From an uncultured Alphaproteobacteria bacterium (lineage in GTDB: Bacteria > Pseudomonadota > Alphaproteobacteria > Micavibrionales > Micavibrionaceae), in the NCBI GenBank assembly GCA_900696495.1, contig CAADGI010000017.1, forward strand, positions 1 through 64,000: 64,000 nucleotides of DNA, given 5' to 3'. This document shows positions 20,361-61,002 of this stretch, in pieces. The notes beneath the pieces are model-generated. The model searched no databases and had not been told where the DNA came from. It saw only the letters and a program-made list of their open reading frames with translations. Within the stretch, counting starts at the first letter, position 1; the number at the start of each line of letters is the position of its first letter. The position numbers and the translations under genes were made by a program.

Positions 20361-21958
20361 GAAGCTTTCCATGTAAATTTGCGGCTATCGCCTTCGGGCG
20401 GCGCAAGCGCCGGAGGCTCAAGTTCGTCGGGCTGATAATAACGCGCCGATCCCATATGAATAGTTGAAAATTTTGAATCCAGATGAAAAACTGGTTTTTT
20501 CATGCTACTTCCGTGATTTAGCCTGTCTTCTATCGTTACGGATGACGCGGAAAAACTGACCTTGCGCTCAAGCGTGATATCGACAGCCTTGCGTTTTTTC
20601 ACGAGCGTTTTGACAAGAAGATTTTTAATGAACAATGCAAGATTTTTCTGCCGGCCGATTGTGATCATAAAACCACGGAAACCAAGAAACAAAAACGGCG
20701 ACATGATTTTCTGATTCATACGGACAAAATCAGCTTTCACGGAGATGTTATCGACTCCGTATTCAACCGGATTTTCGAGTGAAAAACTCTGGCTGCTGAC
20801 GACGCGGTTATCGATACGGCTCCAATATCCGCAATCGCTGAAGACGAGGCGTTTCGATTTTATATCGTAAATTTTCAGGACGCCGCCCTTAGAGGGCGCA
20901 AAAATGGCCTGATAATCATTCGTAACATGCGCAACCAAACCTGCCTTTGGAAAAATATGATGCCCCGGCGAATTGAACGGCAGAGGCATGGCTTTCAGTT
21001 CACTGGCGGCATCATACGCGAAAAGATAATTGTTCAACAACGGACAAAAATTATAGGCATCCATCATGGCAAGGCCAGCAGCACTCTGTCCGGCAACGGA
21101 ACTCCTCATAAACACAGCTATGGCTGCGGCCTCCGGGCAATGCAGCGATAAAATCTCAAAACCGGCCGGAAAATAAAAACTCGTGTTACGGCTTCCATAT
21201 TCACCGCCCAGCGTTCCGTTAGGGTGAATGAAATGGGATATGAATTTTATAGATTTTTTGAGGCTTTCAAGCAGACGGGCGTCCTGTGTAAGTTGCCAGT
21301 AACGCGCGAGATAAAATGTTCCATGTGTCTGGTAGCCGAAATCCACGCCGCCATATTCCTCATACCAACCTTCACTCGACTGACATGATAAAATGCGGCT
21401 AATGAAATATTTTGCGCGCTCGGAAAAACGTCTTTCACCCGCGATACGCGCAATGATTTCAAGCGCGGCGGCGGCGGCGGCCAAGTGATTTGAAAGAACG
21501 CCGTGATGCTCGTCATTTTTGCAAAGCCAGTCGCCCGCCTTCAAAAAAGTTTTATGGATGGAGTTGCATTCTTCAGCAGACAAGGAATCGCTCAACTTGA
21601 AAAATGCTTCACCCAGATAGAAACTGGTAAATGCCGTAGCAGCAAGACTGCGCTCATATGGATAGGCTTCGTCAAAAGAACCATCAGCATGTTGCAGCGA
21701 TTGCCAATATTTGAAACCTGCGATTATCCATTCACGTATACGTTCATTATCGTTATAGATGTTTCCGGGAAACGGGGTCGTATAAAACCAAGTCAGTGCG
21801 CAGAGGGCCTCCTGAAATCGTGAACCCGCAAAATCCGTGAATTTCCAGCTCCAGTATGTACGGTCGAATGCGCCATAGGTTTTTGACGGCGCCTCGCGAT
21901 CCATACGCGACAGGAGACGCGGCATTTGTGCATAGGCATGACTCAGGTAAACATTCAT
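20357..21958 (-). CDS. Hypothetical alpha/alpha-toroid-like protein of glycan operon
   Basis: This 533-residue protein shows repeating helical pairs in its first ~300 residues (YWQSLQHADGSFDEAYPYER, EGWYEEYGG, PNGTLGGEYG). That pattern recalls the alpha/alpha barrel of glucuronyl-epimerase, heparinase or terpene-cyclase-like enzymes. The last ~200 residues look beta-rich, as in heparinase-type C-terminal domains. No signal peptide is evident. It could be a C5-epimerase-like or lyase-like enzyme acting on the glycan. Its ATG at 21958 overlaps the previous stop (ATGA). I do not recognise a named family. Confidence 0.6.
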   Translation of the reverse strand: MNVYLSHAYAQMPRLLSRMDREAPSKTYGAFDRTYWSWKFTDFAGSRFQEALCALTWFYTTPFPGNIYNDNERIREWIIAGFKYWQSLQHADGSFDEAYPYERSLAATAFTSFYLGEAFFKLSDSLSAEECNSIHKTFLKAGDWLCKNDEHHGVLSNHLAAAAAALEIIARIAGERRFSERAKYFISRILSCQSSEGWYEEYGGVDFGYQTHGTFYLARYWQLTQDARLLESLKKSIKFISHFIHPNGTLGGEYGSRNTSFYFPAGFEILSLHCPEAAAIAVFMRSSVAGQSAAGLAMMDAYNFCPLLNNYLFAYDAASELKAMPLPFNSPGHHIFPKAGLVAHVTNDYQAIFAPSKGGVLKIYDIKSKRLVFSDCGYWSRIDNRVVSSQSFSLENPVEYGVDNISVKADFVRMNQKIMSPFLFLGFRGFMITIGRQKNLALFIKNLLVKTLVKKRKAVDITLERKVSFSASSVTIEDRLNHGSSMKKPVFHLDSKFSTIHMGSARYYQPDELEPPALAPPEGDSRKFTWKAS

Positions 21959-22299
21959 GACAGCAGCCATACACCGCCGATGATCAACGCATAGGCGATT
22001 GCTTTATTGACCGTTATGGCTTCGGAAAAAACCAGAATGGAAAAAATAGAAACGGTAACCAGATACGTGCCTAGGAGAGAAGGAACGGCTGACGAAACTT
22101 CATACCGATTAAGGATTACAAGAAAAACCAGGAATGCCAAGCCGTAGAGAAAAGTTCCGACCCACAAATCGGGCTGGAGCATGAAGCGTCCAATGTGCGT
22201 TAATGTTATATCCGAGAGTTCGGGGAATGTTATCCGGCGAAGAAAATATATACCGGCACAGGCAAACAGAGAGCCTGCTAAAAATAATAGGAATTTCAT
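21955..22299 (-). CDS. 4-TM DMT/SMR-like membrane protein (candidate lipid-sugar flippase)
   Basis: This 114-residue protein is almost all membrane helix: four segments at about residues 3-21, 46-65, 71-93 and 97-114. This is the topology of EmrE-like small multidrug transporters and of ArnE/ArnF or GtrA-type carriers that move undecaprenyl-phosphate sugars. It overlaps both neighbours by 4 bases (ATGA). With the GT2 at 19401 and the polytopic protein at 28881 it suggests a lipid-sugar flipping step; that role is inference from context. Confidence 0.68.
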   Translation of the reverse strand: MKFLLFLAGSLFACAGIYFLRRITFPELSDITLTHIGRFMLQPDLWVGTFLYGLAFLVFLVILNRYEVSSAVPSLLGTYLVTVSIFSILVFSEAITVNKAIAYALIIGGVWLLS

Positions 22300-23192
22300 T
22301 GCCCTGCCTCGAGTACGTAATCCAATATCGCCGTGCGTTTTGGCACGAGCGCCTTTTCCATGATATTGATCGCCATGCCGCCCATCGCGAGAAAACCGTA
22401 AATGGGCAAGCGGCCGCGACGCTTTGATTTGGTTGCTGTTTTGAGGATATTTTCAAGGCTCATGGACCAGCCGGTAGGCATGGCGCTGCCCTGCACAGAT
22501 GAGACGCGTAAGCTCCAGCGTGCAGCGCCTGCCTTCATGCCTTCCGGAGTGAATAAAACCGTGTGATAAGGATAGTGCAGCGCGCCCCAGAATTTTTTGA
22601 ATATCTTACGTGTCAGCGTGTCGGGGTTTGGCGTCTGAACAAGAATTTTTCCGCCCGGGGCCAGGAGATTTGCCAAGGAGCGCATTGTATCGTCGACACT
22701 GGAGAGATGCTCAATAACGTGATTCATACGGATGATGTCAAAGCTTTTATCCTGTATGGCAGGCAGATCGGTTGCCAAAACATAGCCTGCGTTTGAATAG
22801 ACGCCGTCGCCGCGCATGTGAGGTTCGTATCCCACCAGGTCTTTGAGTCCTTCTTCATGCAGGGATTGCAAAAAACGGCCATCGCCACACCCAAAATCAA
22901 GAACGGATATATTTTGACCGAAGGTTTTGACAAAATTGCGGGCGACGGCACGGTTCTGCATGTCGACAAATCTGGATAAAAGCGCGATATCCTTGCGTGT
23001 ATAGTTTTGATAATCCTCGGGATAGAGCGTTCCCAGCTCCTCTGCACTCGGCCATGGATGTTGAAACAACGAGGCACAGCGATTGCATTTCATGAATGAG
23101 GAATCGACCTTACGTTCCGAAAAATATTCCACGTCCTTTGGATTTTTGACTTCCAGACTGGAAGAATTGCTATGGCATGCAGGACAAATCAT
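22296..23192 (-). CDS. SAM-dependent methyltransferase with N-terminal zinc-ribbon
   Basis: This 298-residue protein opens with a putative zinc ribbon: CPACHS, and CNRCASL about 30 residues later. A class I methyltransferase core follows, with SAM motif I VLDFGCGDGRFLQSL near residue 96-110 and the later MNHVIEHL segment. The arrangement is common among sugar- and polysaccharide-modifying methyltransferases. It overlaps the upstream desaturase and downstream membrane gene by 4 bases each, within the leftward glycan operon. Confidence 0.8.
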   Translation of the reverse strand: MICPACHSNSSSLEVKNPKDVEYFSERKVDSSFMKCNRCASLFQHPWPSAEELGTLYPEDYQNYTRKDIALLSRFVDMQNRAVARNFVKTFGQNISVLDFGCGDGRFLQSLHEEGLKDLVGYEPHMRGDGVYSNAGYVLATDLPAIQDKSFDIIRMNHVIEHLSSVDDTMRSLANLLAPGGKILVQTPNPDTLTRKIFKKFWGALHYPYHTVLFTPEGMKAGAARWSLRVSSVQGSAMPTGWSMSLENILKTATKSKRRGRLPIYGFLAMGGMAINIMEKALVPKRTAILDYVLEAGQ

Positions 23193-24145
23193 AGGGCCCT
23201 GATTCCTTTGGCCAAAGCCTTGAAAATTACGAAATGAGACCTGGCATAGCGATTATGATTGCCGGGAACAGGTTTATTAATGTGATGCAACGCCCGGTAA
23301 GGCAAATTAGGCCATTCATGATGTTCATAATGATATTGCATCAGGCGGGACATGAAGACCATTCTCTCGGGCAGGCTGGCATCGAGAGTTCTCGTCGTGC
23401 CGCTTCCCCTCAGCACCGCATGGCCTTCCGGATTAATTTCAAGATGCTGCGCATAAAGTCGCAAACGGCTAAGAACCGGGTAAACCGTTACGAGAGCCAC
23501 GTAATACAGAAACCATGCATAAAAATGGCCCGTGAAAAAGGCGACAGTTACCAAAATCAATTGCACGGACAAGACAGGCGTATAAGTGCGTAACGTCGAT
23601 GCAATCCAGGACTGACCGGGCGCTTTCGGCTCGCCGGTTTCTTTCAAACGAGTTACGATAACACTCGTATAGGCTTTCATCGCGGTCAGGCCGCACAGAT
23701 CAGATAAAAATCCCAGGAAGACCGAGCCATACGGATGGATCGCGGCGTATTCGGTATCTATATCGCCGTTATCAAAAAAATTTTCGGCTGCGTGGTGAGA
23801 GAAATGCGCCTTGCGCATAGAGCCCAGCGGCAGGCCGAAAAACGCGGCCAAAAGCCATGTGGAAACAAATTCATTAACGCTCCTCGAAGGGTGAATGTTG
23901 TAATGAACACCTTCATGCAGCCATTCAGACAACTGGCGCTGCTGTATGGCGCACATCACAAGCGTCAGGGGAATAAAGAGCCAAAAAGACAGCAAATTAA
24001 CGCCCAAAATCATCCAGAGAATTACGGCTGCGTGGAGAAGGATAATGTCAGCGATATTCCGGCGGCCATGGGCAACGCTCAGGAAATCATTTCTTCGGAC
24101 ACCGGAAGATTGTTTTTTTTCAATATCCATGATGACCTCTGTCAT
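23189..24145 (-). CDS. Membrane fatty acid desaturase family protein
   Basis: This 318-residue membrane protein has the di-iron histidine boxes of the membrane desaturase/hydroxylase superfamily: HEGVHYNIH near residue 76, HFSHH near 113 and HYEHHEWP near 275, with hydrophobic helices around them. It would introduce a double bond or hydroxyl group into an acyl or carotenoid-like chain. Its place inside a glycan operon suggests it modifies the lipid part of a glycolipid, which is inference. Its start overlaps the upstream stop (ATGA); a start at 24130 is also possible. Confidence 0.85.
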   Translation of the reverse strand: MTEVIMDIEKKQSSGVRRNDFLSVAHGRRNIADIILLHAAVILWMILGVNLLSFWLFIPLTLVMCAIQQRQLSEWLHEGVHYNIHPSRSVNEFVSTWLLAAFFGLPLGSMRKAHFSHHAAENFFDNGDIDTEYAAIHPYGSVFLGFLSDLCGLTAMKAYTSVIVTRLKETGEPKAPGQSWIASTLRTYTPVLSVQLILVTVAFFTGHFYAWFLYYVALVTVYPVLSRLRLYAQHLEINPEGHAVLRGSGTTRTLDASLPERMVFMSRLMQYHYEHHEWPNLPYRALHHINKPVPGNHNRYARSHFVIFKALAKGIRAL

Positions 24146-26301
24146 ATGCCTACCTGAACTTCACCGCCCTCACGCAGAGATTTCTGGATGGCAAAAGTTG
24201 CCTTGGTCGTCAGCACCTGGCTTTCGAAGCTGATTGCAGGCTTGCCTTTTTTTATGCTCTCAATGAATGCCGCCATTTCCTGTGCGTGGCCTTTTTCCGC
24301 CTGCAGCCAGCAGCGTTGCCTGATTTTTTTGCCGTGGCCCTGAATGAGCAACCGGCGCCAGTTGTCGATGACGCCGGTTTTACCGCCGCCGTAAACTTCC
24401 ACCCTTTCCTTGGGGAAGGCAGGGTCGCCGGAAGCGATATAACTGATTGCTCCAACCGAACCGTCTGAGAAGGCGATACTTACTACAATATTATCGGGAT
24501 CGGACGGGGAATTGCCGCCGGTTATCGCTTTCACTGAAAGATTAACAGGATCAGCGCCGCAAATGAACTGCATGATGTCGATGAAATGGCATACTTCGCC
24601 GATGATCCGGCCACCGCCAGACTCCATGTCCTGATGCCAGTGCGAACCGGGAATGAAACCGGCATTGATACGGTATTGCATGACCAATCGATTGCCATTC
24701 ATTTCCTTACGCAGGCGAACGGCCAGCGTAGAGAAACGCCGATTAAAGCCGGTTAGCACTATGCATCCGCTTTCTTTCTGCGCCTTCACCACTTCATCGA
24801 GCTCGACTTGAGCAATGGCCAGCGGTTTTTCGACGAAACAATGTTTCCCGGCGCGCAGGGCTGCACTGACGATCGATGCATGCGTATCATGGCGCGTGGC
24901 AATGAGAACGGCGTCGATGGATGGGTCATTCAGAATTTCATTGTAATCGGATGTGCAGTCTACCGCGCCGTATTTGCGGGCGACGTTGACGCTGGTCAGG
25001 CCGCTGCCGGTGGCGAATGAACGGAAATTGACGCCTTTCACCGATTTAAGTGCCGGGAGCAATACGCCCTGCGCGAACTGACCCGCGCCGATAATGCCGA
25101 GCGCGATGTCGCCTTCTTTTTTACGAGCAGCCTTGGATGATTTAACCTCGACACTCGCAGCTCTCGGTTTATTCGGATCGTAATCGAGCAATATGCCGAT
25201 ATAAGGCTCTTTGGTTTCGCCGAGCAGAAGGTCATAGGCTTTTTGCGCCTCGGCCACTTCGAAACGATGAGTTAGCAAAGGCTTGAGCTGTACGCGGCCA
25301 CGCGCAACGAGATCGAGGAAAGCCTCCATATTCCGGTTTTCCGTCCAGCGGACATAGCCGAGCGGATAATCACGGCCTTTTTCTTCATAATTCGGATCGT
25401 AGCGGCCGGGACCGTAGGAGCGTGATTGGCGAAGATCGATTTCTTTCTCGTAATAAGCGCGACGCGGAACATCATGTCCGACATCGCCGACAGCGACAAC
25501 ACGGGCGCGGTCGCGCGCGAGTTCCGGCGCCAGCGTGATTGGTGCGTTGCTTTTTGTGCCCGCGGTGATCAGGATTGCATCGGCGCCGCGGCCATTGGTG
25601 AAAGCCATAACGGCGCCCTTTAATGCGACAGTATCGCCGCCTGCAACACCGTCATCGGCGCCCAGCGTTCTGGCGAGATCGACTTTGGATTGATCAAGAT
25701 CGATGCAGAACACGCGGCAGCCGGACGCGGCGCAGATCTGCGCCGTAATCTGGCCAACAAGGCCCATGCCAATGATGACGACGGTTTCACCGAGCGTCAG
25801 TTCAGCCTGACGGACACCGTGCAAGGCAATTGCGCCGACAGTTACGAATGCCGCTTCTTCGAAAGAGACATTGTCCGGAATGGGAACTAGAAGATTGCGC
25901 GGGATATAAACTGTTTCCGCATGATTGGCGTAACCAAGCCCTGCACAGGCAACGCGCTGACCCGGCGCGACATCGGCGACGCGGCTGCCGGTCTGCGTTA
26001 CGATGCCGGCGCAGGAATAGCCCAGCGGCAAGGGCGCACTGACCAGATTCATCACGATGCGGCCCGTGGCGAGCAATCCTTCCTGCCCCGCCTTGGCCAA
26101 AACTTTTTTGACAAGGTCAGGCCGCGCGCGCGCCTTTTGCAGCGGGTTCATTTTGGCGAGTTCAATAATCGCTTTTTCCGTGCCTGCGGAAACCAGCGAT
26201 GCGACATTCGAAACCAAAACGCCGTCGGGCTTCAGGGTTGGCGGAGGAACATCCTCGACCGCCATATCGCCTGTTTTGAAATTTTGCAGGACGGCTTTCA
26301 T
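24142..26301 (-). CDS. Bi-domain oxidoreductase: zinc-type dehydrogenase fused to Gfo/Idh/MocA
   Basis: This 719-residue protein joins two enzymes. Residues about 1-370 are a medium-chain dehydrogenase with the nucleotide motif VVIIGMGLVGQITAQ near 173-187. Residues about 395-719 are a Gfo/Idh/MocA oxidoreductase with GIIGAGQFAQGVLLPALKS near 399-417 and the EKPLA motif. Such bi-domain proteins are known from polysaccharide loci and are thought to act on nucleotide sugars. It sits 4 bases after the methyltransferase at 26306 in the leftward operon. Confidence 0.87.
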   Translation of the reverse strand: MKAVLQNFKTGDMAVEDVPPPTLKPDGVLVSNVASLVSAGTEKAIIELAKMNPLQKARARPDLVKKVLAKAGQEGLLATGRIVMNLVSAPLPLGYSCAGIVTQTGSRVADVAPGQRVACAGLGYANHAETVYIPRNLLVPIPDNVSFEEAAFVTVGAIALHGVRQAELTLGETVVIIGMGLVGQITAQICAASGCRVFCIDLDQSKVDLARTLGADDGVAGGDTVALKGAVMAFTNGRGADAILITAGTKSNAPITLAPELARDRARVVAVGDVGHDVPRRAYYEKEIDLRQSRSYGPGRYDPNYEEKGRDYPLGYVRWTENRNMEAFLDLVARGRVQLKPLLTHRFEVAEAQKAYDLLLGETKEPYIGILLDYDPNKPRAASVEVKSSKAARKKEGDIALGIIGAGQFAQGVLLPALKSVKGVNFRSFATGSGLTSVNVARKYGAVDCTSDYNEILNDPSIDAVLIATRHDTHASIVSAALRAGKHCFVEKPLAIAQVELDEVVKAQKESGCIVLTGFNRRFSTLAVRLRKEMNGNRLVMQYRINAGFIPGSHWHQDMESGGGRIIGEVCHFIDIMQFICGADPVNLSVKAITGGNSPSDPDNIVVSIAFSDGSVGAISYIASGDPAFPKERVEVYGGGKTGVIDNWRRLLIQGHGKKIRQRCWLQAEKGHAQEMAAFIESIKKGKPAISFESQVLTTKATFAIQKSLREGGEVQVGI

Positions 26302-26305
26302 GAGA

Positions 26306-27001
26306 TTATTTCACCCTGATGTTGCAGCTATAGACCAGATTCAAATCCACCATCGGGATGCGCAGCGGGAAATATGTTTCCTGCACGTCGGAGAAATAAT
26401 GCCGTATCAGGGAAATCAGGTTGTAAGACGGGTTCACATGTTCGCGGGCGATAATATAATTGAGGTCCAAACCTTCGCGCGCGAACGCCCGGCGCGTTGT
26501 CAGGTAACGGCCCAAGCGCCATGCAATACCGCCATCCAATGGAATTGAAATGCTGATAATTCCACCGGGCTTCAGCACGCGGCGCCATTCGCGCAGCACG
26601 CGGTGAGGCTGGGGCAGGTGCTCGAGATTATAAACCGAGATCAGACGGTCAAATGAATTGTCAGGATATTTAAGGGCGGTCGCGTCCTGGATTTCATAGC
26701 CAACATTCTTGCGGTTTGCATGACGAACGCGCGCCTTGTCGAGAAGGTCGGCAGAAATGTCCGTCATCATATATTCGTTGAATGTGTGCTTGACCTGCTC
26801 CAGATGGAAGCCGGTGCCCGCGCCGACTTCGAGCACACGGTCGAAATGAACATCAGACCCGAACGATTTTTCAAGCAACCAATGTCCCGCGTTGTTGACC
26901 TTGCTGACCAGCGGGTTGCCGGAATAATAAATCCGGTCATAAATGCACGGGGCCGCTTCCTGCCACGAAACCCACATCTTGTCTTCTTCGACGCCGATCA
27001 T
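26306..27001 (-). CDS. Class I SAM-dependent methyltransferase
   Basis: This 231-residue methyltransferase has the SAM motif VLEVGAGTGFHLEQV near residue 55-69, then MMTDISADLLDKA, and ISVYNLEHLPQPHRVLREW, all in the order expected of the methyltransferase-11/UbiE-like group. It overlaps the stop of asnB (ATGA) and is followed 4 bases later by the bi-domain oxidoreductase. Substrate unknown; context points to the glycan or its lipid anchor. Confidence 0.8.
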   Translation of the reverse strand: MIGVEEDKMWVSWQEAAPCIYDRIYYSGNPLVSKVNNAGHWLLEKSFGSDVHFDRVLEVGAGTGFHLEQVKHTFNEYMMTDISADLLDKARVRHANRKNVGYEIQDATALKYPDNSFDRLISVYNLEHLPQPHRVLREWRRVLKPGGIISISIPLDGGIAWRLGRYLTTRRAFAREGLDLNYIIAREHVNPSYNLISLIRHYFSDVQETYFPLRIPMVDLNLVYSCNIRVK

Positions 27002-28893
27002 AACCAGCCTTGCTCCTCATCAATGAAAATCCGGTACCACAATTCCAACATCGCCAGCGAGAAAATCTGCTTGCCGAACAGGAAGCCGGGTTGATCGGCG
27101 GCCTGCCGCAAATTGCGGATCGCTTCCCAGCGGAAAAGGCCCCGCTTTTTAACCGCGCTTTCGGACAGCAGCTCCGCGACCATGCCCTTTAAAGGTTCCG
27201 AGTTAAGATACTGATTTATAGGGATATAGAAAGGTTTTTTCTTTCTTTTTGCCGTCCCGGAAGCCCGGGTTTTCGCTAAGTAATTGCGCAATAACAGCTT
27301 GTTTCCCTTAGGGCCAATCTTATAGCCCGGCGGCATAGACATAACAAGTTCCACAAATTTATGGTCCATATAGGGCACCCGCCCCTCGAGAGAGTGGGCC
27401 ATGGTCATTTTATCGAGCTTGCAGAGGATATCGTCGGGCAGCCAATGCTCGAACTGAAGCGCAAGCATATTGTTGAAATCGAGCAGCGCGCTTTCTTCAT
27501 TACGATGAGAGGCCAGTTGTTTACTGAACTCAGGCGTATAGAAAGATTGCTTGTCGGTTTCGCTAAAAAGGGAAATCAGGAAGCGGTATTGCTCAGCGGT
27601 TGAATTTTTACCGAGGATGGACAGAAATTCAAGAAGACGCTTTTTTCCCGCTTCTCCGAGCTCGCCGGGATAATCGAAAGCTTGATTCAGGAGAGATGCG
27701 GGCACGGCTTTGATCAGCGGCATGATCGCGCCTGACTGGATCAGTCCCGGCACATAGCGGGAATAGACGGACGCCCATTTGATGACGCGGTGCATGAAAT
27801 AGCCGCCCAGAATTTCATCGGCCCCCTCGCCGCTCTGAACGACTGTAACTTTTTCCGATGCCAGCCTGGAGAGAAGATACATTGGCAGGACGATGCCGTC
27901 GCCGATAGGCTCATCAAGATTCCAGATAATTTTTCCGAGCAACGATGTGTCTTCAGCACCGCAGATTATTTCATAATGGTCGGTGCGCAGGAATTTTGCA
28001 GTTGCAGCGGCATCTGATAATTCATCCCCTTCCCAGCCGAAACCAACGGCAAAAGTCTTCAGTTGCTGAGGAAATTGACCGGTCAGCGAGGAGGCTATGG
28101 CAGCCGAATCAAGGCCGCCTGATAAAAACGCGCCGACGGGACGTTCGCTGAGCATATGAATACGCGTGGCTTCATCAAATGCATGATCAAATGCTTCCTG
28201 CGCTTCGGCGCGGGTGCCGTTCCATGCAGGCTGGCTGCCGGGCGTCCAGTAACGCTTAAGGCTGCCCTGGCCCTTCCGCCAGACCATAAAATGCGCAGGA
28301 GGGAATTTTTTGATATGGCTGAATAAGGTCTGCGGACCCGGCACGTAGCGCAGGGATAAATATTCATCGATCGCAGCGGGATTGACATCGCGCGGCAGAT
28401 CGGGATGCTGCAAAAGGGATTTGATTTCCGAAGCAAAAATCAACTGGCCGTTAATTTGCGCATAATAAAGCGGTTTGATGCCGATCCGGTCGCGAGCGAT
28501 AAACAGACTTTCATCACGCTGGTTAAAAATCGCGAAGGCAAACATACCCCGCAACCGTGTCAGACAGTCCTCGCCCCAGATTTTATAACCCTGCAGGACG
28601 ACTTCGGTATCCGATTGCGTTTGAAAAACACATCCCTTCGCCTCGAGTTCGAGGCGGAGATCGGCGTGATTATAAATTTCGCCGTTAAAAACGATCGATA
28701 AATCGTCCAGCGTAATCGGCTGTTTGCCGTGAGCTATATCGATAATTGAAAGGCGGCGCATGCCGATGGCAGTATTTCCGGCGAGCAAAATACCTTCATC
28801 GTCGGGGCCGCGATGGGCGATGCGGTCTATCATGCGCGCGATAGTGCCGGCTGAATCTCCCTTAAAGCCGGAGAACCCGGCTATCCCGCACAC
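26998..28893 (-). CDS. Asparagine synthase (glutamine-hydrolysing), AsnB-type
   Basis: This 631-residue amidotransferase has catalytic Cys2 directly after the initiator Met (MCGIAGFSG) and the glutaminase-domain FNGEIYNH. The synthase domain has the PP-loop SGGLDS at about 258-263, and later GRVPYMDHKFVEL. In surface-glycan loci such enzymes often amidate a sugar carboxyl rather than make free asparagine, so either role is possible. Start chosen because Cys2 must be exposed. It overlaps the upstream membrane-protein gene by 13 bases. Confidence 0.92.
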   Translation of the reverse strand: MCGIAGFSGFKGDSAGTIARMIDRIAHRGPDDEGILLAGNTAIGMRRLSIIDIAHGKQPITLDDLSIVFNGEIYNHADLRLELEAKGCVFQTQSDTEVVLQGYKIWGEDCLTRLRGMFAFAIFNQRDESLFIARDRIGIKPLYYAQINGQLIFASEIKSLLQHPDLPRDVNPAAIDEYLSLRYVPGPQTLFSHIKKFPPAHFMVWRKGQGSLKRYWTPGSQPAWNGTRAEAQEAFDHAFDEATRIHMLSERPVGAFLSGGLDSAAIASSLTGQFPQQLKTFAVGFGWEGDELSDAAATAKFLRTDHYEIICGAEDTSLLGKIIWNLDEPIGDGIVLPMYLLSRLASEKVTVVQSGEGADEILGGYFMHRVIKWASVYSRYVPGLIQSGAIMPLIKAVPASLLNQAFDYPGELGEAGKKRLLEFLSILGKNSTAEQYRFLISLFSETDKQSFYTPEFSKQLASHRNEESALLDFNNMLALQFEHWLPDDILCKLDKMTMAHSLEGRVPYMDHKFVELVMSMPPGYKIGPKGNKLLLRNYLAKTRASGTAKRKKKPFYIPINQYLNSEPLKGMVAELLSESAVKKRGLFRWEAIRNLRQAADQPGFLFGKQIFSLAMLELWYRIFIDEEQGWL

Positions 28894-30848
28894 CGCGCCA
28901 CTCCTTTAATAGATACCAGTGCAAGGCTATTGGTACGTGCAATAATTTTGTCGCCATCACAGATCATTTGCTCAGGCATTAGCACATGCGAAAGCGAAGG
29001 AGCGATCGCGCGTATTTCTTTTATATTTTTGCGCCAGATTTGATTGTATTCCCCTGCTCTGGCTGCAAAATACTGGCGGCGGCACATTGTTTTCCAGAGC
29101 CATGCCGCGCAGGACGGGTCGTTCTCGACAGGCTGAACCCCTAATAAGGCAGCCCGCTTCCAGACTTCTTCGGCAAGCGGCGGGCTGTAAAAGAGATACT
29201 GGCTTTCGCCCCAACCAAGAAATGTTGCGCGCTCGGGCAGAATAAATTCACCCGTGAAATTACGAAACGGAAGAACAAGAACCATACCGTTCTGAGGGAC
29301 ATGTTCTTTTACCGTTGTTACCACATCGTTTACTTTTTCAACCCGCTCAAAATTCCAGGGATTACGCGTCAGCAGCATAAAAATCGTGCCTACCATCAAT
29401 AAACCGTAGATAACGATGTGCGTCACCGGAATTTTTGAAACCACGCTTGCAAGCCAGGCAGGCTTCCAATTCATAATTAAAATGAAGACAACGGCCAGAG
29501 ACCAGAGATGAAGGCCAAAAAATACAATTGAAAAAATTGTTGCCGATACAAGAACCTTCGTCCATTTCCTTTTATCTTTTTCCTGTAAGTGCGGCAGCCA
29601 CATCCACCATGCCAGCGCAGCAACAACAAGAGCGAGACTTGCGTGATTTACAATCTGGTCCTGGTAGAAAATATCGAGATCGATCAAAGGCGAGATGTTC
29701 GTCGGAATGCCTAGCAATGGCAGTTTCGAGGGCAATGCGGCTCCCATTGATCCGAGGATCAACAGCAAGCCGGTGAGCTTGTCTTTATCGTTGCCCTTAA
29801 CAAAGGCTTGATAAGAGCGCTCGGCGAGAAGAGCCGTTAACAGCAGCACGGCATAAGGAGTGGAGCGGGTAAGCGCCAGTTGTGTCAAAGGAATAGAGCG
29901 GAAAACTTCCGAAGCCAGGATCTGCACAAGCCACAAAGCCATCGTCACAATGATCACGGTCGACGCACGCGCGCTGATTTCGGGATCATGCGAACGTGCT
30001 CTCGCCCGCAGGGCAACAAGCCCGCATATAAGCGCCGCCATAATGGCAACAACAACCAGCAACCCATCCTGCAGAGGCGTCAGATTGCTTGATTTGTTAA
30101 AAACATAAGACCACCAGGCGGCATGATCGAAATCAGACTCTACCGGCAATCTGAGAAGTACAAACCATATAAAAGGCAAAAGCGCGGCAAGCGTGGCGGC
30201 GCCGAGCTTGAATAGGTCGTTAATCGCTTGCCTGCGCGTATACATTTCCCACAGCGCGTGCGTTCCCAACATGGACAGCAAAACGAAGCCGTGCGTTGGA
30301 TGATAGGCCGCGAGCAAAGCCGCGATTATCGCCGCCCCGTAACGCTTTCCCTGCAAATGAAGACCGAGAACCAAAAAACCCACGGCCAGCGCCATCCCGG
30401 AACTAACGATTTTAAAGCCGGCGGCGATAGCCAGATAACGGCCGAAGCCCGTGAACGCGGACAAATACGCAATCAGCACCGCCAAGAAAATAAATCCCGA
30501 ATTTCGCCCAAAGGCAGAAAAAAAGACCAGCAACCCGAGCGATAGAACCGCCATTTGTACGATGTATAAGATTAAAAATTGGATCTGCGGCGAAATTCCG
30601 GCATCATGCATCACCTTGCCGGGAAAAACCGCAAGCCCCATGTCCTTTGTAGACTGAATAAATTGGGCGCTGATTGACTCAGGCGGAAATGACGGATCAG
30701 ACATGATTTCAGAAAAAACAATCGTATCGTTCACGTCAATACTGACCGGCTCCCCCAAGCCTTCCGAACCGCGAATGGCTATTAAAAAAATGAGAATAAA
30801 AATCCATTGAAGAAACGGATTGTGCAAGTATTTCCTGACTGCTGACAT
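28881..30848 (-). CDS. Polytopic membrane protein of glycan operon (possible GT-C-like)
   Basis: This 655-residue protein has a first helix near residue 10-30, then an extracytoplasmic loop with acidic residues (VSIDVNDTIVFSEIM), then about ten further membrane helices. A soluble C-terminal domain of about 150 residues ends it. That layout resembles membrane glycosyltransferases of the GT-C kind, which use lipid-linked sugars, but I see no diagnostic motif. A start at 30944 overlaps the upstream epimerase gene; the ATG at 30848, five bases after that stop, is preferred. Confidence 0.6.
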   Translation of the reverse strand: MSAVRKYLHNPFLQWIFILIFLIAIRGSEGLGEPVSIDVNDTIVFSEIMSDPSFPPESISAQFIQSTKDMGLAVFPGKVMHDAGISPQIQFLILYIVQMAVLSLGLLVFFSAFGRNSGFIFLAVLIAYLSAFTGFGRYLAIAAGFKIVSSGMALAVGFLVLGLHLQGKRYGAAIIAALLAAYHPTHGFVLLSMLGTHALWEMYTRRQAINDLFKLGAATLAALLPFIWFVLLRLPVESDFDHAAWWSYVFNKSSNLTPLQDGLLVVVAIMAALICGLVALRARARSHDPEISARASTVIIVTMALWLVQILASEVFRSIPLTQLALTRSTPYAVLLLTALLAERSYQAFVKGNDKDKLTGLLLILGSMGAALPSKLPLLGIPTNISPLIDLDIFYQDQIVNHASLALVVAALAWWMWLPHLQEKDKRKWTKVLVSATIFSIVFFGLHLWSLAVVFILIMNWKPAWLASVVSKIPVTHIVIYGLLMVGTIFMLLTRNPWNFERVEKVNDVVTTVKEHVPQNGMVLVLPFRNFTGEFILPERATFLGWGESQYLFYSPPLAEEVWKRAALLGVQPVENDPSCAAWLWKTMCRRQYFAARAGEYNQIWRKNIKEIRAIAPSLSHVLMPEQMICDGDKIIARTNSLALVSIKGVARCAG

Positions 30849-30852
30849 TTTA

Positions 30853-31968
30853 TTATTCCGATAATTCTTTCTCGAGCACCGATATAATCCGGCGGCTGGC
30901 ATTGCCATCCCATAATTCCGGGCGAACGCCCTTTTTGGTGTCACCTTTTATAAACTTTTCGAACGATGAGAGCAAGGCTTGAGGCAACGTCCCAACCATG
31001 GTGTTGGTGCCTTGATTAACGGTAACCCAACGCTCTGTATTTTCGCGTAAAGTAAAGCAAGGCACGCCGAGAGCCGTGGTTTCCTCCTGCAAACCGCCGG
31101 AATCTGTCATAACGATTTTGGCCTCTTTCATAAGGCCCAGCATTGATAAATAAGATTGCGCGGGAACCAGGAAAATCCGGCCATCATCGAAATATTTACC
31201 CAGTGAAAAGCGCTTAATTGATTCTTTTGTGCGCGGGTGAGCCGGAAATACAACAGGCAGTCGTTCCCCAATTTTATACAATGCCCCCAACAAGCCTTTA
31301 AGTTTATCCGGATCGTCAACATTGGATGGCCTATGCAAAGTGAGAAGCGCATAATTTGAAGATGATATTTTTATTTCAAGCGTTGCAAACGTTTCCGCAG
31401 AACTGACAGCGCGTGCCAGATTGTATTCTAAACAATCGACCATAACGTTACCGACAAAATGAATTTTTTCCCGTGCAATTCCTTCCTTAAGAAGATTTTC
31501 ATCGGCTTCGCGCTCGGTCGTAAATAATAAATCAGAAATTTCATCGGTTAAGATGCGGTTTGTTTCCTCCGGCATCGTCCTGTCAAAGCTGCGCAATCCT
31601 GCCTCAACATGGATAACAGGAATTTTTTTCTTTGAAGCAACCAGCGCGCAGGCCAACGTTGAATTGACATCGCCGACAACCAACACCGCACGCGGGGATA
31701 TTTTATCGACAGTCTGCTCAAACCGGCGCATGATTTCCGCGATCTGCACCTCGCGCGCGGCGCTCCCCACGCCCAGATTTTCCTCAGGCTCCGGAATATC
31801 GAGTTCACGGAAAAAACTTCCGGACATGGAATCATCGTGATGCTGCCCTGTATGAATCAGCCGCCCGCGCAGGATCCGGCTGGGGGCCATCGCTCTCAGG
31901 ATCGGCGCTATTTTCATAAAATTAGGCCGCGCCCCGGCGACGACAAGAATATCCATTCGTTCAGGCAT
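30853..31968 (-). CDS. wecB: UDP-N-acetylglucosamine 2-epimerase (non-hydrolysing)
   Basis: This 371-residue enzyme interconverts UDP-GlcNAc and UDP-ManNAc, feeding a glycan with N-acetylmannosamine. Key motifs are GARPNFMKIAPI near the N-terminus, HVEAGLRSFDRTMPEETNR in the middle and TDSGGLQEET near residue 275, all standard for WecB/MnaA. A GTG at 32046 is open but adds an odd hydrophobic stretch; the ATG at 31968 has AGGA upstream and is preferred. It is the first gene of the ten-gene leftward operon and is divergent from the alginate remnant at 32159. Confidence 0.93.
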   Translation of the reverse strand: MPERMDILVVAGARPNFMKIAPILRAMAPSRILRGRLIHTGQHHDDSMSGSFFRELDIPEPEENLGVGSAAREVQIAEIMRRFEQTVDKISPRAVLVVGDVNSTLACALVASKKKIPVIHVEAGLRSFDRTMPEETNRILTDEISDLLFTTEREADENLLKEGIAREKIHFVGNVMVDCLEYNLARAVSSAETFATLEIKISSSNYALLTLHRPSNVDDPDKLKGLLGALYKIGERLPVVFPAHPRTKESIKRFSLGKYFDDGRIFLVPAQSYLSMLGLMKEAKIVMTDSGGLQEETTALGVPCFTLRENTERWVTVNQGTNTMVGTLPQALLSSFEKFIKGDTKKGVRPELWDGNASRRIISVLEKELSE

Positions 31969-32087
31969 TATCTGTGTTCCTGCGTTGACGCCACCTAAAA
32001 ACTTTATGCAGACGGTTACAAGAAAATAATGGCCTAAACGGCTCACCAGATTTATTTTTCATATAAAATAGAATGGGAACTTTTCGG

Positions 32088-32139
32088 CCTTTCTGACCAT
32101 TAGAAAGGTCTTCGAAAACTATGGTTTTCCGAGTTTTTT
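32088..32139 (+). promoter_or_regulatory. Two hairpins ahead of the algX remnant, second terminator-like
   Basis: CCTTTCT (32088-32094) pairs with AGAAAGG (32102-32108). Next, TCGAAAAC (32112-32119) pairs with GTTTTCCGA (32124-32132) with one bulged C, followed by TTTTTT (32134-32139). The second hairpin resembles an intrinsic terminator facing right, 20 bases before the GTG at 32159. It could be an attenuator of the alginate transcript. A GGAAC at 32076-32080 stands upstream, but its downstream box is CATT, not CGTT. Confidence 0.35.
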
Positions 32140-32158
32140 AAACTTCAGGATCAGACAG

Positions 32159-32584
32159 GTGAAACGAACCTCCACTGTAAAAAATATTCTGACTGGTGTT
32201 GCTATTTTCGCCTTAACGGGCACCGGCACGGCTGCTGCCTATTGGCTTACTACGCGTGAAAAGAATGCACCGAATGAACTGGGAAATTCCTTTTGTCCTG
32301 ATATGGCCAATGAAAAGGCTTACAAGGATAAGGGCGCACAGACTTACGCCACCCTCATTCCCGGCCAGGATGGCTGGATATTCCGCACAAAAAACGATTT
32401 CCGCAGCAACTGGACTATCAGCGAGGCCACGCAAGAGCGGCTTTTGGCATTGCAAGAAGCCATGCGCGCAAATAACGCGGAACTGGTTATTGTCATGCCC
32501 CCCGTGCGCGGCATGATTCATGCCAACGAGCTTTTACCAGTTGATCAAAAGATATATGGCGATGAAACATTGCAAAAATCATGA
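32159..32584 (+). pseudogene. algX: algX remnant (N-terminal part only)
   Basis: This 141-residue frame begins with a membrane anchor and then follows the start of AlgX, the SGNH-like alginate O-acetylation protein: SFCPDMANE, GWIFRTKNDFRSNW and ELVIVMPPVRGMIHANELLP fall in the family's order. AlgX is about 470 residues; here only the first quarter is present and the catalytic SGNH residues are gone. It stops at 32584 where an AlgE frame begins (TCATGA). It starts at a GTG with AGGA upstream. The loss looks like a large deletion running into algE. Confidence 0.72.
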
Positions 32585-33159
32585 CAGGCTCAACCAATCG
32601 CGACGTGCTGGGATGGGGGCTTGATGCCGCCGCCACCGTTGATCCGTTTCAGGAAGGTGGATTTGTATTTTCGCTCGGCTATGCGTTTGGCTCGGGCGAT
32701 GATGGATCATCCGGCACGGACAATGCCTTTCGCCAGACCGACATGCAGGGAAATTCCAGCCGCGTCGGCCTGGAGCGCCAGCAACAGAAAAATTACGGCG
32801 AAGTCCTGAGACCGGAACTTTCGAACATCCATGTGCTTAGCGCCGGCGCCGGTTACCCGGTCACAGAAGCGACGGATGTCAGTCTGACTTATTTTTATTA
32901 CCGGCTGGATGAAGAAGAAACAGGGCTGCGCAGCAGCGGCATTGGCGCGCCATTAAACGGAAATGACAAATCACTCGGCCAAGGGCTGGATTTTGCTCTC
33001 AATATGAATGTGGGCGAAGAATTCGGCATAAACGCCCCTTATGCGGACCGCACAGATTTCCGCTTTGTGGCTGGAACGTTCTTCCCGGGTGATGCGTATG
33101 ATCCTAGCAATGATAACGCAGCGCTCAGGCTATTTACGGAGCTACGCTTCAAATTTTAG
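32581..33159 (+). pseudogene. algE: algE remnant (C-terminal part of alginate export porin)
   Basis: This 192-residue frame matches the C-terminal part of AlgE, the outer-membrane alginate porin of about 490 residues. Segments LGYAFGSGDD, NAFRQTDMQGNSSR, ELSNIHVLSAGAGYPV and VSLTYFYYRLDEEE follow the AlgE order, and it ends in F as barrels do. It has no signal peptide and lacks the first half of the barrel, so it cannot be exported or folded as AlgE. The frame is open only from about 32566, which puts the junction with algX at 32566-32600. Confidence 0.75.
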
Positions 33160-34294
33160 AAATAACAGCGCCTTTTACAAACAGGCGCTGCGCGTCTCCC
33201 TGTGCGCTGTCTTCTTCGTGGCGGGATGCAGGGGAAATACGAGCGCCGATTATTCATCCCTGAATCCGCCTTATGCCTTAAGCGCCGCAGCGGCGCCTGT
33301 GATAGATCCGCGCGCCCTGCCCGCCTGCCCCAGGCCTATGCCGCCGGTTAAAGATCTTGTGCTTGGAGGCGTTTATAAAAAATCCGATCCGACGCGCTCT
33401 GAAATCGATGAGGATGCGCAAAAAATATACCAGGGACAGACGGCAAAACTGAACAGCTTTGAAAACAGGCTGAGCGCGCTTACCAATGATTATTTGAAGA
33501 CCAACAAGAAAGACGGCCGTTCGGCCTATTGTGCGTTGGACTGGCTATATACCTGGGCTGTAGGGGATGCCTTTCTCGGCGAGGTGAATGTCCAGGGCGG
33601 TTATGCGCGTCAGTGGAGCCTTGGAACTCTCTCCTCCTCCTACATGCAGGTCCGCGATTTTCCTTTTGATGAAAATAAAAAGGCTGTGATTGAGAACTGG
33701 CTGCTCAAAATTGCCGGACGGGTGATGAATGATTACGCCGATATCTCTACTTATGTCAGGAAACAAAACAACCATTTATATTGGGCGGCGTGGGCGATCG
33801 CCGAAACCGGCATCGCGACCGGACGCAAGGAGCTTTATGACTGGGGAGTCGGCAAAGTTAAATATGCGCTGCATGTCCAGATTCAAAATGACGGCACACT
33901 TCCGCTGGAACTCATCCGCGGTCAGAAGGCGCTGCAATACCATGTTTTTGCGCTGGCGCCCCTTGTCATGGTCAGCGAAGCCGCGATCAATAACGGCGAA
34001 GATTTATACGCGGTGAACGACGGCGCCTTGCATAAACTCGTTGCCGTGACTTTTGAAGGACTGGAAAATCCTGCCTATTTCGAAAAACTGACCAATCATA
34101 AACAGATTTCGAGCGCATCCATGTCAGATGGGCATTTTTCGTGGCTGGAAGCTTATAATGCACGCTTCCCTGCGCCGGAATATGAAGCGTTCCTGAAAAA
34201 ACATCGTCCCGTGATATCACGCCGTACAGGAGGAGACATGACTTTTCTCTATCGGAACGTCCAACGTAATCCTTCCCCCAAGCCTGCGCCTTAA
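33110..34294 (+). CDS. algL: Alginate lyase AlgL-type, poly(beta-D-mannuronate) lyase
   Basis: This periplasmic lyase cuts stray alginate during export. The sequence shows a lipobox-like VAGC after a hydrophobic stretch, then AlgL motifs: CALDWLYTWA, the signature NNHLYWAAWAI, DGTLPLELIRGQKALQYH with the catalytic residues, and HFSWLEAYNARF near the end. The lyase domain seems complete. The start is uncertain: the ATG at 33110 overlaps the algE remnant by 50 bases and leaves about 30 residues before the hydrophobic core; 33041 is also open. A lipoprotein AlgL would be unusual. It follows the broken algX and algE directly. Confidence 0.82.
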   Translation: MITQRSGYLRSYASNFRNNSAFYKQALRVSLCAVFFVAGCRGNTSADYSSLNPPYALSAAAAPVIDPRALPACPRPMPPVKDLVLGGVYKKSDPTRSEIDEDAQKIYQGQTAKLNSFENRLSALTNDYLKTNKKDGRSAYCALDWLYTWAVGDAFLGEVNVQGGYARQWSLGTLSSSYMQVRDFPFDENKKAVIENWLLKIAGRVMNDYADISTYVRKQNNHLYWAAWAIAETGIATGRKELYDWGVGKVKYALHVQIQNDGTLPLELIRGQKALQYHVFALAPLVMVSEAAINNGEDLYAVNDGALHKLVAVTFEGLENPAYFEKLTNHKQISSASMSDGHFSWLEAYNARFPAPEYEAFLKKHRPVISRRTGGDMTFLYRNVQRNPSPKPAP

Positions 34295-34300
34295 TTTTGC

Positions 34301-35518
34301 ATGGTGACGATCAAAAAAGATCTGCGTTCGGGTCAGTCTGTATGGACAGCATATCCAAGGCCGAAAATTTCGTATGAAAATCTAATAACCAACGTTCGCG
34401 CCGACATTCTTGTGATCGGCGCCGGCATTACAGGCGCGCTAATGGCAGAAAGCCTGACGGATGCGGGATTTTCAGTCATTATAATAGACCGGCGCATTCC
34501 ATTGACGGGCTCTACGCTGGCTACAACTGCCCTCATTCAAGCTGAAATCGATGTGCCGCTGACAAAACTCTCCAGACAAATCGGCTTTGGCAAATCGGCA
34601 CGCGCATGGCAGCGCTCAAAACTGGGATTGGACAGTCTCGCAGAAAAAACCCGGCTGCTCGGCATTTCTTGCAATCTGCGTCCGGAGCTTTCTCTTTATA
34701 TGGCGGGCGACGTGCTCGGTCCGGATGAGTTGAAGAAAGAGCATGAAGCCTTGCGGCAAATAGGTTTTGCTTCCGATTTTATTAGTCGAGAACAACTTGC
34801 AGAGCGTTATTCGATACATGCCGGATCCGCTCTTTTATCGTCAGGCAATTATTCCGCCAATCCTTACAAATTGGCGCATGGATATCTAAAAAATTCAACC
34901 AAGCGCGGCGCAAAAATATTCGCACCCGAAGAAATTCTGGATATAGAAACAAGCGCCCAAAGGGTTTACGCTTATACCAAGTCAGAATTCTGCGTCAGCG
35001 CACGTTATGCTGTTTTCACAACCGGCTACGAAGTTCCGGAACAATTGAAAAAGCAGAATTATAAAATTTTCTCAACCTGGGCCATGGCAACGGAAAAAGG
35101 TGCCGCCAGTGATATGCCCATGCTTTGGGAGGCGTCCGATCCTTATCTTTATGTGCGCCGCACGAAGGATGGCCGGGTTATTTGCGGCGGTGAAGACGAG
35201 GAATTTTCCGATGAGAAAAAGCGTGACGCCATGACGCCTAAAAAAATGAAAACGCTTCAGAAAAAAATGAAAAAACTACTGCCATCTGTCAACAACACGC
35301 CGGAATTCGCATGGACCGGTTCATTCGGCGTTACGCCCACGGGATTACCGCTGATCGGGCCGGTCCCCGGATTGAAGAACTGCTTTGCGGTTTTGGCTTT
35401 CGGCGGCAACGGGATTGTAAACGGCCGCATCGGCGCAGAAATAATTTGCAATTACCTGGCCGGGAAAGACGACCAAGATGCTGATATTTATAATTTTAAA
35501 TTGCCTTCCACCGTTTAA
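34301..35518 (+). CDS. FAD-dependent oxidoreductase (DAO family)
   Basis: This 405-residue flavoenzyme has the dinucleotide motif VIGAGITGALMAESL near residue 37-51 and the substrate domain of the D-amino-acid-oxidase/glycine-oxidase superfamily. LIGPVPGLKNCF, then FGGNGIVNGRIGAEI, form the C-terminal FAD contact. It oxidises an amine or amino-acid-like substrate; which one cannot be read. It starts 6 bases after algL, may be co-transcribed with it, and is followed 16 bases later by endonuclease V. No Rieske domain is present at the C-terminus. Confidence 0.83.
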   Translation: MVTIKKDLRSGQSVWTAYPRPKISYENLITNVRADILVIGAGITGALMAESLTDAGFSVIIIDRRIPLTGSTLATTALIQAEIDVPLTKLSRQIGFGKSARAWQRSKLGLDSLAEKTRLLGISCNLRPELSLYMAGDVLGPDELKKEHEALRQIGFASDFISREQLAERYSIHAGSALLSSGNYSANPYKLAHGYLKNSTKRGAKIFAPEEILDIETSAQRVYAYTKSEFCVSARYAVFTTGYEVPEQLKKQNYKIFSTWAMATEKGAASDMPMLWEASDPYLYVRRTKDGRVICGGEDEEFSDEKKRDAMTPKKMKTLQKKMKKLLPSVNNTPEFAWTGSFGVTPTGLPLIGPVPGLKNCFAVLAFGGNGIVNGRIGAEIICNYLAGKDDQDADIYNFKLPSTV

Positions 35519-35534
35519 ATCATAAATTAAAACC

Positions 35535-36215
35535 ATGGATCATATTCCCGCCTCTTTGACACGCACGCCTGAATCCGCACAGGACGCAGTCCTTATACAA
35601 TGGGAAATGAGGAAATATGTCCGCATCAATGACGATTTTGGAACCGTGAAAATGATTGCAGGCATTGATGTCGGATATGACTTGCAAAGCAATACCAGCA
35701 AGGCAGCGCTGGTTATCATGGATATCGACAGGCTAATGCCTCTTGAAACCGTTATTGCGACCGATCCCACGCCCTTTCCATACATTCCTGGCCTTCTTTC
35801 CTTTCGCGAAGCGCCCGTTATCATCAAAGCGCTTGAACAAGTGAAGAAAAAGCCGGATATGATTTTCATCGATGGCCAGGGCATTGCACACCCGCGCGGG
35901 CTGGGCATTGCCTCCCATATCGGTATATTGACGGGATACCCTTCGATCGGGGTGGCGAAATCGGTATTATGCGGGAATTACAAAGAACCCGGCGAGAAAA
36001 AAGGTCAATCCTCGCACCTTATATATAAGGGAAATAAAATCGGAACGGCGCTGCGGAGCCGTGATAATGTCAAACCTCTTTTTATTTCACCCGGCCATAA
36101 AATCAGCCATGAAAGCGCGGTTGATTTTGTGCAAAAGTGCCTGACACGTTACCGCCTGCCGGAACCCACGAGAATTGCTGACAAATTAAGCAAATTCGCC
36201 GACAAAAATATTTAA
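35535..36215 (+). CDS. nfi: Endonuclease V (deoxyinosine 3' endonuclease)
   Basis: This repair enzyme nicks DNA one phosphodiester beyond deoxyinosine. In 226 residues it shows the family's catalytic set: D45 in GIDVGY, E92 in LSFREAP and D113 in FIDGQGIAHPRGLG, plus the base-probing wedge PYIPG near 82-86. It is unrelated in function to the flanking genes and probably only shares a transcript with the oxidoreductase upstream. Its stop overlaps the stop of the convergent DUF748 gene in a TTAA. Confidence 0.94.
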   Translation: MDHIPASLTRTPESAQDAVLIQWEMRKYVRINDDFGTVKMIAGIDVGYDLQSNTSKAALVIMDIDRLMPLETVIATDPTPFPYIPGLLSFREAPVIIKALEQVKKKPDMIFIDGQGIAHPRGLGIASHIGILTGYPSIGVAKSVLCGNYKEPGEKKGQSSHLIYKGNKIGTALRSRDNVKPLFISPGHKISHESAVDFVQKCLTRYRLPEPTRIADKLSKFADKNI

Positions 36216-37288
36216 CCTTCGGATTTGGAAAATTCCACCGTGTCGTCGGTGTCCCTTATAAACGCGTTAAAGGTGTTTCTGAAAATTCCCACAATGGAAG
36301 ACCATGTGTCGGTTTCGGGATTATCGAGATCGCCCGTGAGCGGGATGCGTGTCGCAAGCTGATCTTCTTCATGATTTTTAAATATCTCGGTAAAAACCGA
36401 CACAACTGATTGCCAGAGAATGCTGATAGGGTTACGGTCTTCCTCAACGCTGACCATATTAATATCGGTTGCAATTGGTTTTATATAACCGGTCAATTTG
36501 CCATTGCGGGCCACGGCCTCGATATAAAGGCTTAGCACGCCGCTCTCAAAATCAACCGCGGCGATAGAGCGGCTATAATCATTGATAGCCGGCAAGGCGG
36601 CACCTTCAAGCTTTATATCCAGGTCGAAATCGGGAATATCGCGAATGATATTCATGGCGCCGTTGGCATTGACCTTTCCGCCGCCGATCGACTGGCCGCT
36701 AAGACGAATAGGAGAGGGAAGAGTCTGATTTTTATCTTCGACGTCTTTAAGATTTTTCACTTCAAGATCGATATTTTTCACAAAGATGTCAACCTTCGGG
36801 CTTGCGGAAAAATCCTGGAAGGAAATTTCTCCGCCGCGGATGTTAAGGCGGTTTATGTCGAGGGGCGACAATGCGTCTACGAATTTCGACCACGCGGCGC
36901 CTTCACCGGTCTGCACTTCGCCGCCGGCCTTGCCTACCGCGAAGTTGAGATCGGCATCGTATAAATCAATTTCGGCGACGATCGCGCCGTCGAAAAGCGC
37001 GCTCCATTGCACGGATAAATCCGAGGTTTTGATAGCGACAAAGGGCACGGGAATATCCGCATCGGTTTTGAAAATGCGCAGATCGTGGATTTGATAGGCC
37101 CCGCGCCAGAGATTGATATCAATATCGGCTATGGAGCCGCTATAGCCTTTTAATTCATTAATTTCTTTATTAACATAATCTTTGACCCAGTGGGGCAAGT
37201 AGATACGCGCTGCTATGAGGGCTATAAGCAGCGTCAGCCCTGTTCCTATTGCAACCCTGCCCCATAATCTTTTGGTTGCAGCTTTCAT
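36212..37288 (-). CDS. DUF748/AsmA-like membrane-anchored protein
   Basis: This 358-residue protein has one N-terminal membrane helix (about residues 12-28) and a periplasmic beta-rich body. The repeated pattern (VKDYVNKEINELKGYSG, INLWRGAYQIHDLRIFK, LNIRGGEISFQDFS) is typical of DUF748, a relative of AsmA/TamB. Such proteins are thought to aid lipid or protein traffic between the membranes. It is convergent with endonuclease V (4-base overlap). Confidence 0.84.
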   Translation of the reverse strand: MKAATKRLWGRVAIGTGLTLLIALIAARIYLPHWVKDYVNKEINELKGYSGSIADIDINLWRGAYQIHDLRIFKTDADIPVPFVAIKTSDLSVQWSALFDGAIVAEIDLYDADLNFAVGKAGGEVQTGEGAAWSKFVDALSPLDINRLNIRGGEISFQDFSASPKVDIFVKNIDLEVKNLKDVEDKNQTLPSPIRLSGQSIGGGKVNANGAMNIIRDIPDFDLDIKLEGAALPAINDYSRSIAAVDFESGVLSLYIEAVARNGKLTGYIKPIATDINMVSVEEDRNPISILWQSVVSVFTEIFKNHEEDQLATRIPLTGDLDNPETDTWSSIVGIFRNTFNAFIRDTDDTVEFSKSEG

Positions 37289-37355
37289 GCTTCAGCCAAC
37301 GCATAGCAAAAGGAACGGTTCACGACATTTAATTGAAAGTCCGGTTAAATGGGAA

Positions 37356-52088: not shown

Positions 52089-52118
52089 ACCTAAAAAATG
52101 CCCTATTTTCAGGGCGCT

Positions 52119-54318: not shown

Positions 54319-55021
54319 TTTTATATTTCAGCCACGCTTCGGTGAGCTCGAAATCAAACGGCGTGTCGATGTTGAAGGCGCGCTCTTCCGGAACCTTATA
54401 ACCCCTGGCATCGTTTCCATACAAAGACCCGGCTTTTACAACAGATGTCCGCAAGGCGTAAACCGCGCCAGTGCGCCAGTACAAGGGTTCAAAATTCTGA
54501 CGCATCACGCCTGAGGTGTTTTTTTCTACATAAGGAGTGATCTTCTGATCACCTTCATGCATCTTGTACAGTGTCCTGGGATGGCGTCCGCCCACTTCCG
54601 TAACAGTAATGGCGCTGTCAGCACCAGAGGAAATCAGCAGGTCCAGCGTGCCGTCCACATCCTCGACAGAACGCAACGGGCAGGTGGGTTGAAGGATACA
54701 AACATAATCGTAACGTTCACCCATGCTCTCAAGAAATTTCAGCGCATGGTTAACTACGTCAATCTGTTTGGCAGTATCGGTCGCAAGCTCGGAAGGACGA
54801 ATAAAAGGCACGCTGGCGCCATGCTGTGTAGCAACGCGAGCGATTTCCTCGCTGTCGGTCGAGACCACAACCTTCTTGATCAGCTTGCTCTGGCGCGCGA
54901 CATCGACGCTCCAGCCGATCAGGGGCTTGCCATGGAGTAGCTTGATGTTCTTGCCCGGCACGCCCTTGGAGCCACCACGGGCGTTAATAAGGCAAAGTAT
55001 TGAATTATTTGATTTTTTCAC
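54308..55021 (-). CDS. neuA: CMP-nonulosonate cytidylyltransferase (NeuA-like)
   Basis: This 237-residue enzyme activates the nonulosonic acid with CTP. LCLINARGGSKGVPGKNIK near residue 9 is the CTP loop, and VVVSTDSEEIARVA with the ILQPTCPLRSVEDVDGT segment completes the family pattern. It is single-domain, of LegF/PtmB size, and so could make CMP-legionaminate as well as CMP-Neu5Ac. It starts at a GTG and is convergent with neuC, with 11 bases shared. Confidence 0.9.
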   Translation of the reverse strand: MKKSNNSILCLINARGGSKGVPGKNIKLLHGKPLIGWSVDVARQSKLIKKVVVSTDSEEIARVATQHGASVPFIRPSELATDTAKQIDVVNHALKFLESMGERYDYVCILQPTCPLRSVEDVDGTLDLLISSGADSAITVTEVGGRHPRTLYKMHEGDQKITPYVEKNTSGVMRQNFEPLYWRTGAVYALRTSVVKAGSLYGNDARGYKVPEERAFNIDTPFDFELTEAWLKYKISN

Positions 55022-58384: not shown

Positions 58385-58386
58385 CC

Positions 58387-59892: not shown

Positions 59893-59894
59893 AG

Positions 59895-60992: not shown

Positions 60993-61002
60993 AATCGCCT
61001 GC

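Follow-up and report, generated by a model that had tools for sequence, protein, structure and literature searches.

Loss of about 12.77 kb in one deletion through an ancestrally complete alginate cluster very probably (at a probability of roughly 0.86) accounts for the two truncated alginate genes that meet at one point in the stretch of DNA analysed here (64,000 nucleotides, G000:C17:1-64000; hereafter, the window). The source genome, G000, comprises 2.04 Mb in 25 contigs and is rated 100% complete with 0.28% contamination. An initial annotation had proposed a single large deletion as the simplest cause, and the comparative data support this proposal well: one block of ~12.77 kb is missing relative to congeners, its flanks are collinear, the block is absent elsewhere in the genome, and the uninterrupted gene order is common to another genus.

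Two gene remnants and the uninterrupted cluster in congeners

Frames for the start of AlgX, the end of AlgE and a following AlgL had been read from the sequence, and Pfam matches confirmed all three. The first frame (32159-32584, + strand; 141 aa from a GTG start) matches positions 2-62 of the 268 in the Pfam ALGX profile (E = 3.5e-7). Its homologous part, an N-terminal stub of about 140 of 495 residues (32159-32578), shares 84% identity with the N-terminal 141 residues of the proteins of both congeners and corresponds to residues 1-141 (28%) of the 495-aa AlgX-like protein in G002. The second frame (32581-33159, + strand; 192 aa, open from the ATG at 32581) matches positions 255-393 of 395 in the Pfam Alginate_exp profile (E = 8.3e-16) and holds a C-terminal stub of algE (32584-33159, residues ~290-483). 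By alignment, residues 289-483 (40%) of the 483-aa G002 AlgE remain in G000, at 96% identity, rather than a full-length exporter. Elsewhere in the genome, a 433-aa frame contains another, weak match to Alginate_exp (E = 3.5e-7) at G000:C14:36164-36622 (L002).

A search of relatives for an intact cluster, as the initial annotation had suggested, showed an uninterrupted alginate cluster, with an algX-like gene upstream of algE, at the corresponding position in both congeners compared (G001 and G002, both records being metagenome-assembled genomes, MAGs). In G002 the order is AlgX-like paralogue (+), AlgI-AlgF-AlgX-AlgJ (-) and AlgD-Alg8-Alg44-AlgA-AlgK-AlgE-AlgL (+). The left flank of the window (24152-32583) can be aligned with G002 as far as C10:26910, whereas the right flank (32579-34252) resumes, free of gaps, from C10:39677 onward, leaving a missing block of 12,771 bp relative to G002 (12,761 bp relative to G001). 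Genes on either side are collinear with the congeners, among them a UDP-GlcNAc 2-epimerase family gene (30853-32046, - strand) and an FAD-dependent oxidoreductase gene (34301-35518, + strand). The block contains nine whole genes (algI, algF, algX, algJ, algD, alg8, alg44, algA and algK) and cuts two more, leaving the algX-like gene without its 3' part and algE without its 5' part. The ALGX-domain start was correctly recognised, but it belongs to a second AlgX-like paralogue and not to the AlgX beside algJ and algF. The congener cluster (L017:1-13416) contains two AlgX-like genes besides AlgJ, and the match of the G002 paralogue to AlgX structures ends near residue 356 of its 495.

Among the G002 proteins, AlgF, AlgE and the ALGX-domain proteins were named by Pfam, AlgX and AlgE additionally by PDB matches. 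The remaining names combine place and order in the cluster with domain content: Alg8 (GT2 family), Alg44 (PilZ plus HlyD-like domains), AlgD (nucleotide-sugar dehydrogenase domain), AlgA (nucleotidyl transferase with a ManC-type helix), AlgK (Sel1 repeats, with a partial AlgK-model match far below cut-off) and AlgI (MBOAT likeness, 37% to a further MBOAT gene present in the window, with a DltB model below cut-off). In an NCBIfam scan of ten proteins, the sole model past cut-off was a general nucleotide-sugar-dehydrogenase model, for AlgD.

The alginate operon of Pseudomonas aeruginosa runs algD-alg8-alg44-algK-algE-algG-algX-algL-algI-algJ-algF-algA. The congeners share most of its components (Pfam and PDB matches), with algL directly following algE at the cluster end. 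They differ from it in that the acetylation genes are encoded on the other strand and there is a second AlgX-like gene. In addition, no AlgG epimerase was recognised among the congener cluster proteins scanned, in a scan without an AlgG-specific model; for this reason the polymer of the congeners might be polymannuronate. In the window, by comparison, nearly all of the operon is deleted.

The junction had been placed within 32566-32600, and aligning both halves to the congeners narrowed the break to 32579-32583, where left and right homology overlap. The window at the join reads TCATGACAGG; the left ends at the break are TCATGGG (G002) and TCGTGGG (G001), and the right ends are TCGTGACAGG (G002) and TCGTAACTGG (G001). 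Sequence common to both ends is certainly TG and at most TCNTG (2-5 bp), an overlap that can occur by chance. Within G002 the TCNTG overlap includes one transition, and an exact TCGTG is obtained only when the left end of G001 is paired with the right end of G002. The longest exact word common to both ends within 300 bases is 10 in G002 and 9 in G001. Both the stop codon of the first frame (32582-32584) and the ATG of the second were created at the join (ATGA, 32581-32584).

A second, smaller difference from the congeners follows at 34253-34300, where the window has 48 bp versus 1,394 bp with an HI0933-like flavoprotein gene in G002. This gene (L017:13351-14744) comes after algL in both congeners and is missing from the window; it is open in G001 and has one internal TAA in G002, and G000 has one full HI0933-like copy elsewhere, at 71% DNA identity to the congener copy. 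Further along, window 37325-37348 is without a counterpart of an aldehyde-dehydrogenase-family gene in G002 (L017:17764-19680), and window 21941-24151 has methyltransferase and fatty-acid desaturase genes versus one methyltransferase gene in G002 (L050:3225-4486).

Absence from the genome and distribution in the order

When the entire block, split into two queries, was searched against G000, no relocated copy came up, and relocation within the genome was rejected. The search matched only the surviving part of algE and a paralogous stretch of 222 bases at 69% identity, which falls in the MBOAT gene of the window at 58387-59892; the collinear flanks and the surviving algE part show that the method recovers matches at congener level. 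The DNA of Alg44 is absent from G000 and its protein from the window. The AlgD part of the block is likewise absent from G000, and the only match in the window, a partial one at 33%, lies at the window's far end. A second surface-polysaccharide region occupies window 52098-62079, with NeuB, 2-epimerase, cytidylyltransferase, glycosyltransferase and MBOAT acyltransferase genes.

Family searches covered 58 genomes of the order, G000 included, and returned matches in 13 genomes for AlgL, 15 for Alg8 and 12 for AlgE. Alg8 was absent from G000 and present in all 12 other genomes with an AlgL match, making G000 the sole AlgL-bearing genome without it; Alg8 also occurs in three genomes in which AlgL had no match (G009, G014 and G039). 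Some of these matches are imperfect: those to AlgL contain stops in G055 and G030 and are weak and partial in G008 and G028, where they may represent other lyases, and those to Alg8 have one stop each in G030 and G036. AlgE is represented by 195 residues in G000, and 10 of the 11 matches in other genomes span the whole protein or almost all of it, the exception being a partial match with an internal stop in G014. AlgX-like frames in other genomes measure at least 356 aa, apart from a 130-aa frame in G018 that is cut by the end of its contig.

A parallel outside the genus is G034, from another genus of the family, in which AlgL-AlgE-AlgK-AlgA-Alg44-Alg8-AlgD, AlgJ-AlgX-AlgF-AlgI and an AlgX-like gene share the order and relative orientation of the congeners at 40-69% identity (Alg44 29%), with ~10 kb of other DNA separating Alg44 from Alg8. 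Because this other genus has the same order, we took the uninterrupted state as ancestral. G019 has the congener gene order minus the AlgX-like gene; in G055 the alginate genes are rearranged and split over contigs, and in G018 three separate contigs carry Alg8, AlgL and an AlgX-type gene, respectively. Among the literature matches listed for Micavibrio with alginate, no title or abstract opening concerned this cluster, and a search for deletion of an alphaproteobacterial alginate operon found no paper.

The surviving lyase and the age of the probable loss

The longest algL frame (33041-34294, + strand; Pfam Alginate_lyase, E = 1.7e-38; structure relatives 7sa8 and 4ozv) had seemed complete, and its core is indeed intact, with 88% identity to the proteins of G001 and G002. 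Since the ATG at 33041 falls within algE, and since G001 carries a TAG among the first 16 codons of the matching stretch, translation probably begins further downstream. The C-terminal residues encoded after 34252 differ from those of the congeners, and in this part the two congeners are also unlike each other.

Residues 92-404 align to P. aeruginosa AlgL (7sa8, E = 7e-52) and, with equivalences counted off the alignment to the solved structure, the counterparts of H202, W205, R249 and Y256 are kept. With an alginate lyase domain and equivalents of the catalytic R249, Y256 and H202, the protein classes as an AlgL of family PL5. Across 13 other AlgL-like proteins aligned, the R249 and Y256 columns are kept in every one; the H202 column is L in three, and the W205 column is L in two and S in one, which may reflect misalignment. 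The window protein differs from P. aeruginosa AlgL in having V at the K66 and F at the Y259 equivalent. Because both congeners have the same residues, these differences are not due to the deletion. According to PMC8829089, mutating H202, R249 or Y256 in P. aeruginosa AlgL abolished detectable activity, and K66A and Y259F left ~1% and ~30% of catalytic efficiency, respectively, which makes the predicted lyase strength of the window protein uncertain. The same paper describes P. aeruginosa AlgL as removing alginate from the periplasm during synthesis; with no alginate synthesis that task would be gone, and the window AlgL has probably lost it.

Selection was compared across the locus by dN/dS against the two congeners, giving 0.044 and 0.022 for the algE stub, 0.086 and 0.116 for the algX stub, and 0.100 and 0.083 for algL. 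Nine flank genes gave 0.03-0.18, and G001 versus G002 over the same 12 pieces gave 0.015-0.157. Relaxation of selection was seen in neither stub. On the window lineage, the algE stub has three codons with non-synonymous changes and 37 synonymous changes; in a Poisson model, which like the lineage counts is rough owing to saturation and small counts, at most ~5% of the branch was free of selection (P = 0.03 at 5%, 0.001 at 10%). For algL, 21 amino-acid versus 60 silent codon changes fall on the window lineage (4:27 and 8:27 in the congeners), so that the window's share of amino-acid changes is slightly raised at most, if at all. The lack of relaxation in the algE stub therefore indicates a recent loss, a strain variant or an artefact: a true deletion would be recent compared with the species split, and all three would look alike in this selection test.

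Competing explanations and consequences

The leading alternative is an assembly join, in which the block is still present in the population but was passed over by the assembler or scaffolder. It draws support from the division of G000 into 25 contigs, from its probable status as a MAG like the congeners, and from stubs that show no decay, as an artefact or strain-level variant would. Nevertheless, the window contains no N, the junction lies 32.6 kb inside a 124-kb contig, and no other contig carries the block, in a genome whose completeness is rated 100%. Within one congener genome, the two ends match exactly over no more than 4 bases at the break, and the longest words near the ends (9-10, as measured in the congeners and not in this species) are too short for an ordinary k-mer misjoin. 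We regard such a join as unlikely.

A working role for the short proteins, for instance in an AlgL-centred degradation module, appears highly improbable. The algE stub and algL do look conserved (dN/dS 0.02-0.10), and the ATGA overlap of the two stub frames is suggestive of coupling; but conservation of the stub is explained by selection preceding the loss, and a search for relatives with the same short proteins did not find them among the 57 other genomes. Because such short forms are unseen in relatives, bar the partial AlgE of G014 and the contig-end frame of G018, the stubs are probably not working genes, judging from sequence.

Recombination between the two AlgX paralogues is rejected since, being mutually inverted, they would give an inversion and not a deletion. 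Excision of a mobile element is rejected too: in line with the initial annotation, no transposase or integrase was named among the main frames of 24142-37288 (frame 28881-30944 being without a Pfam match), and the ends have no long repeat.

Under the preferred reading, in which this block was deleted, end joining or slipped replication at the 2-5 bp of shared sequence would have removed the nine genes and truncated the algX-like gene on its 3' side and algE on its 5' side. The AlgE stub would then be without its N-terminus, hence presumably its signal peptide, and without most of the barrel, and both stubs would be non-functional. The organism would no longer make or export alginate, and algL would survive without an endogenous substrate, placed downstream of the region upstream of the algX-like gene and no longer of algD. 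Promoter and terminator predictions over 32000-34400 were unusable because their counts were near those of shuffled sequence (three promoter-like sites versus 2.6; five terminator-like sites versus 3.3, sd 1.6). It is doubtful, and in our view quite unlikely, that a non-producer profitably keeps AlgL to cut alginate from neighbours or prey, which would turn a producer into a consumer in one step.

Full alginate clusters appear to occur patchily in several Micavibrio-like genera (Alg8 in 15 of the 58 genomes of the order). The window would add a clean case in which the pathway for a biofilm polymer was lost in one step, both breakpoints being known and two near neighbours keeping the ancestral state; it would otherwise be an ordinary gene loss, with unusually clear breakpoints, caught early.
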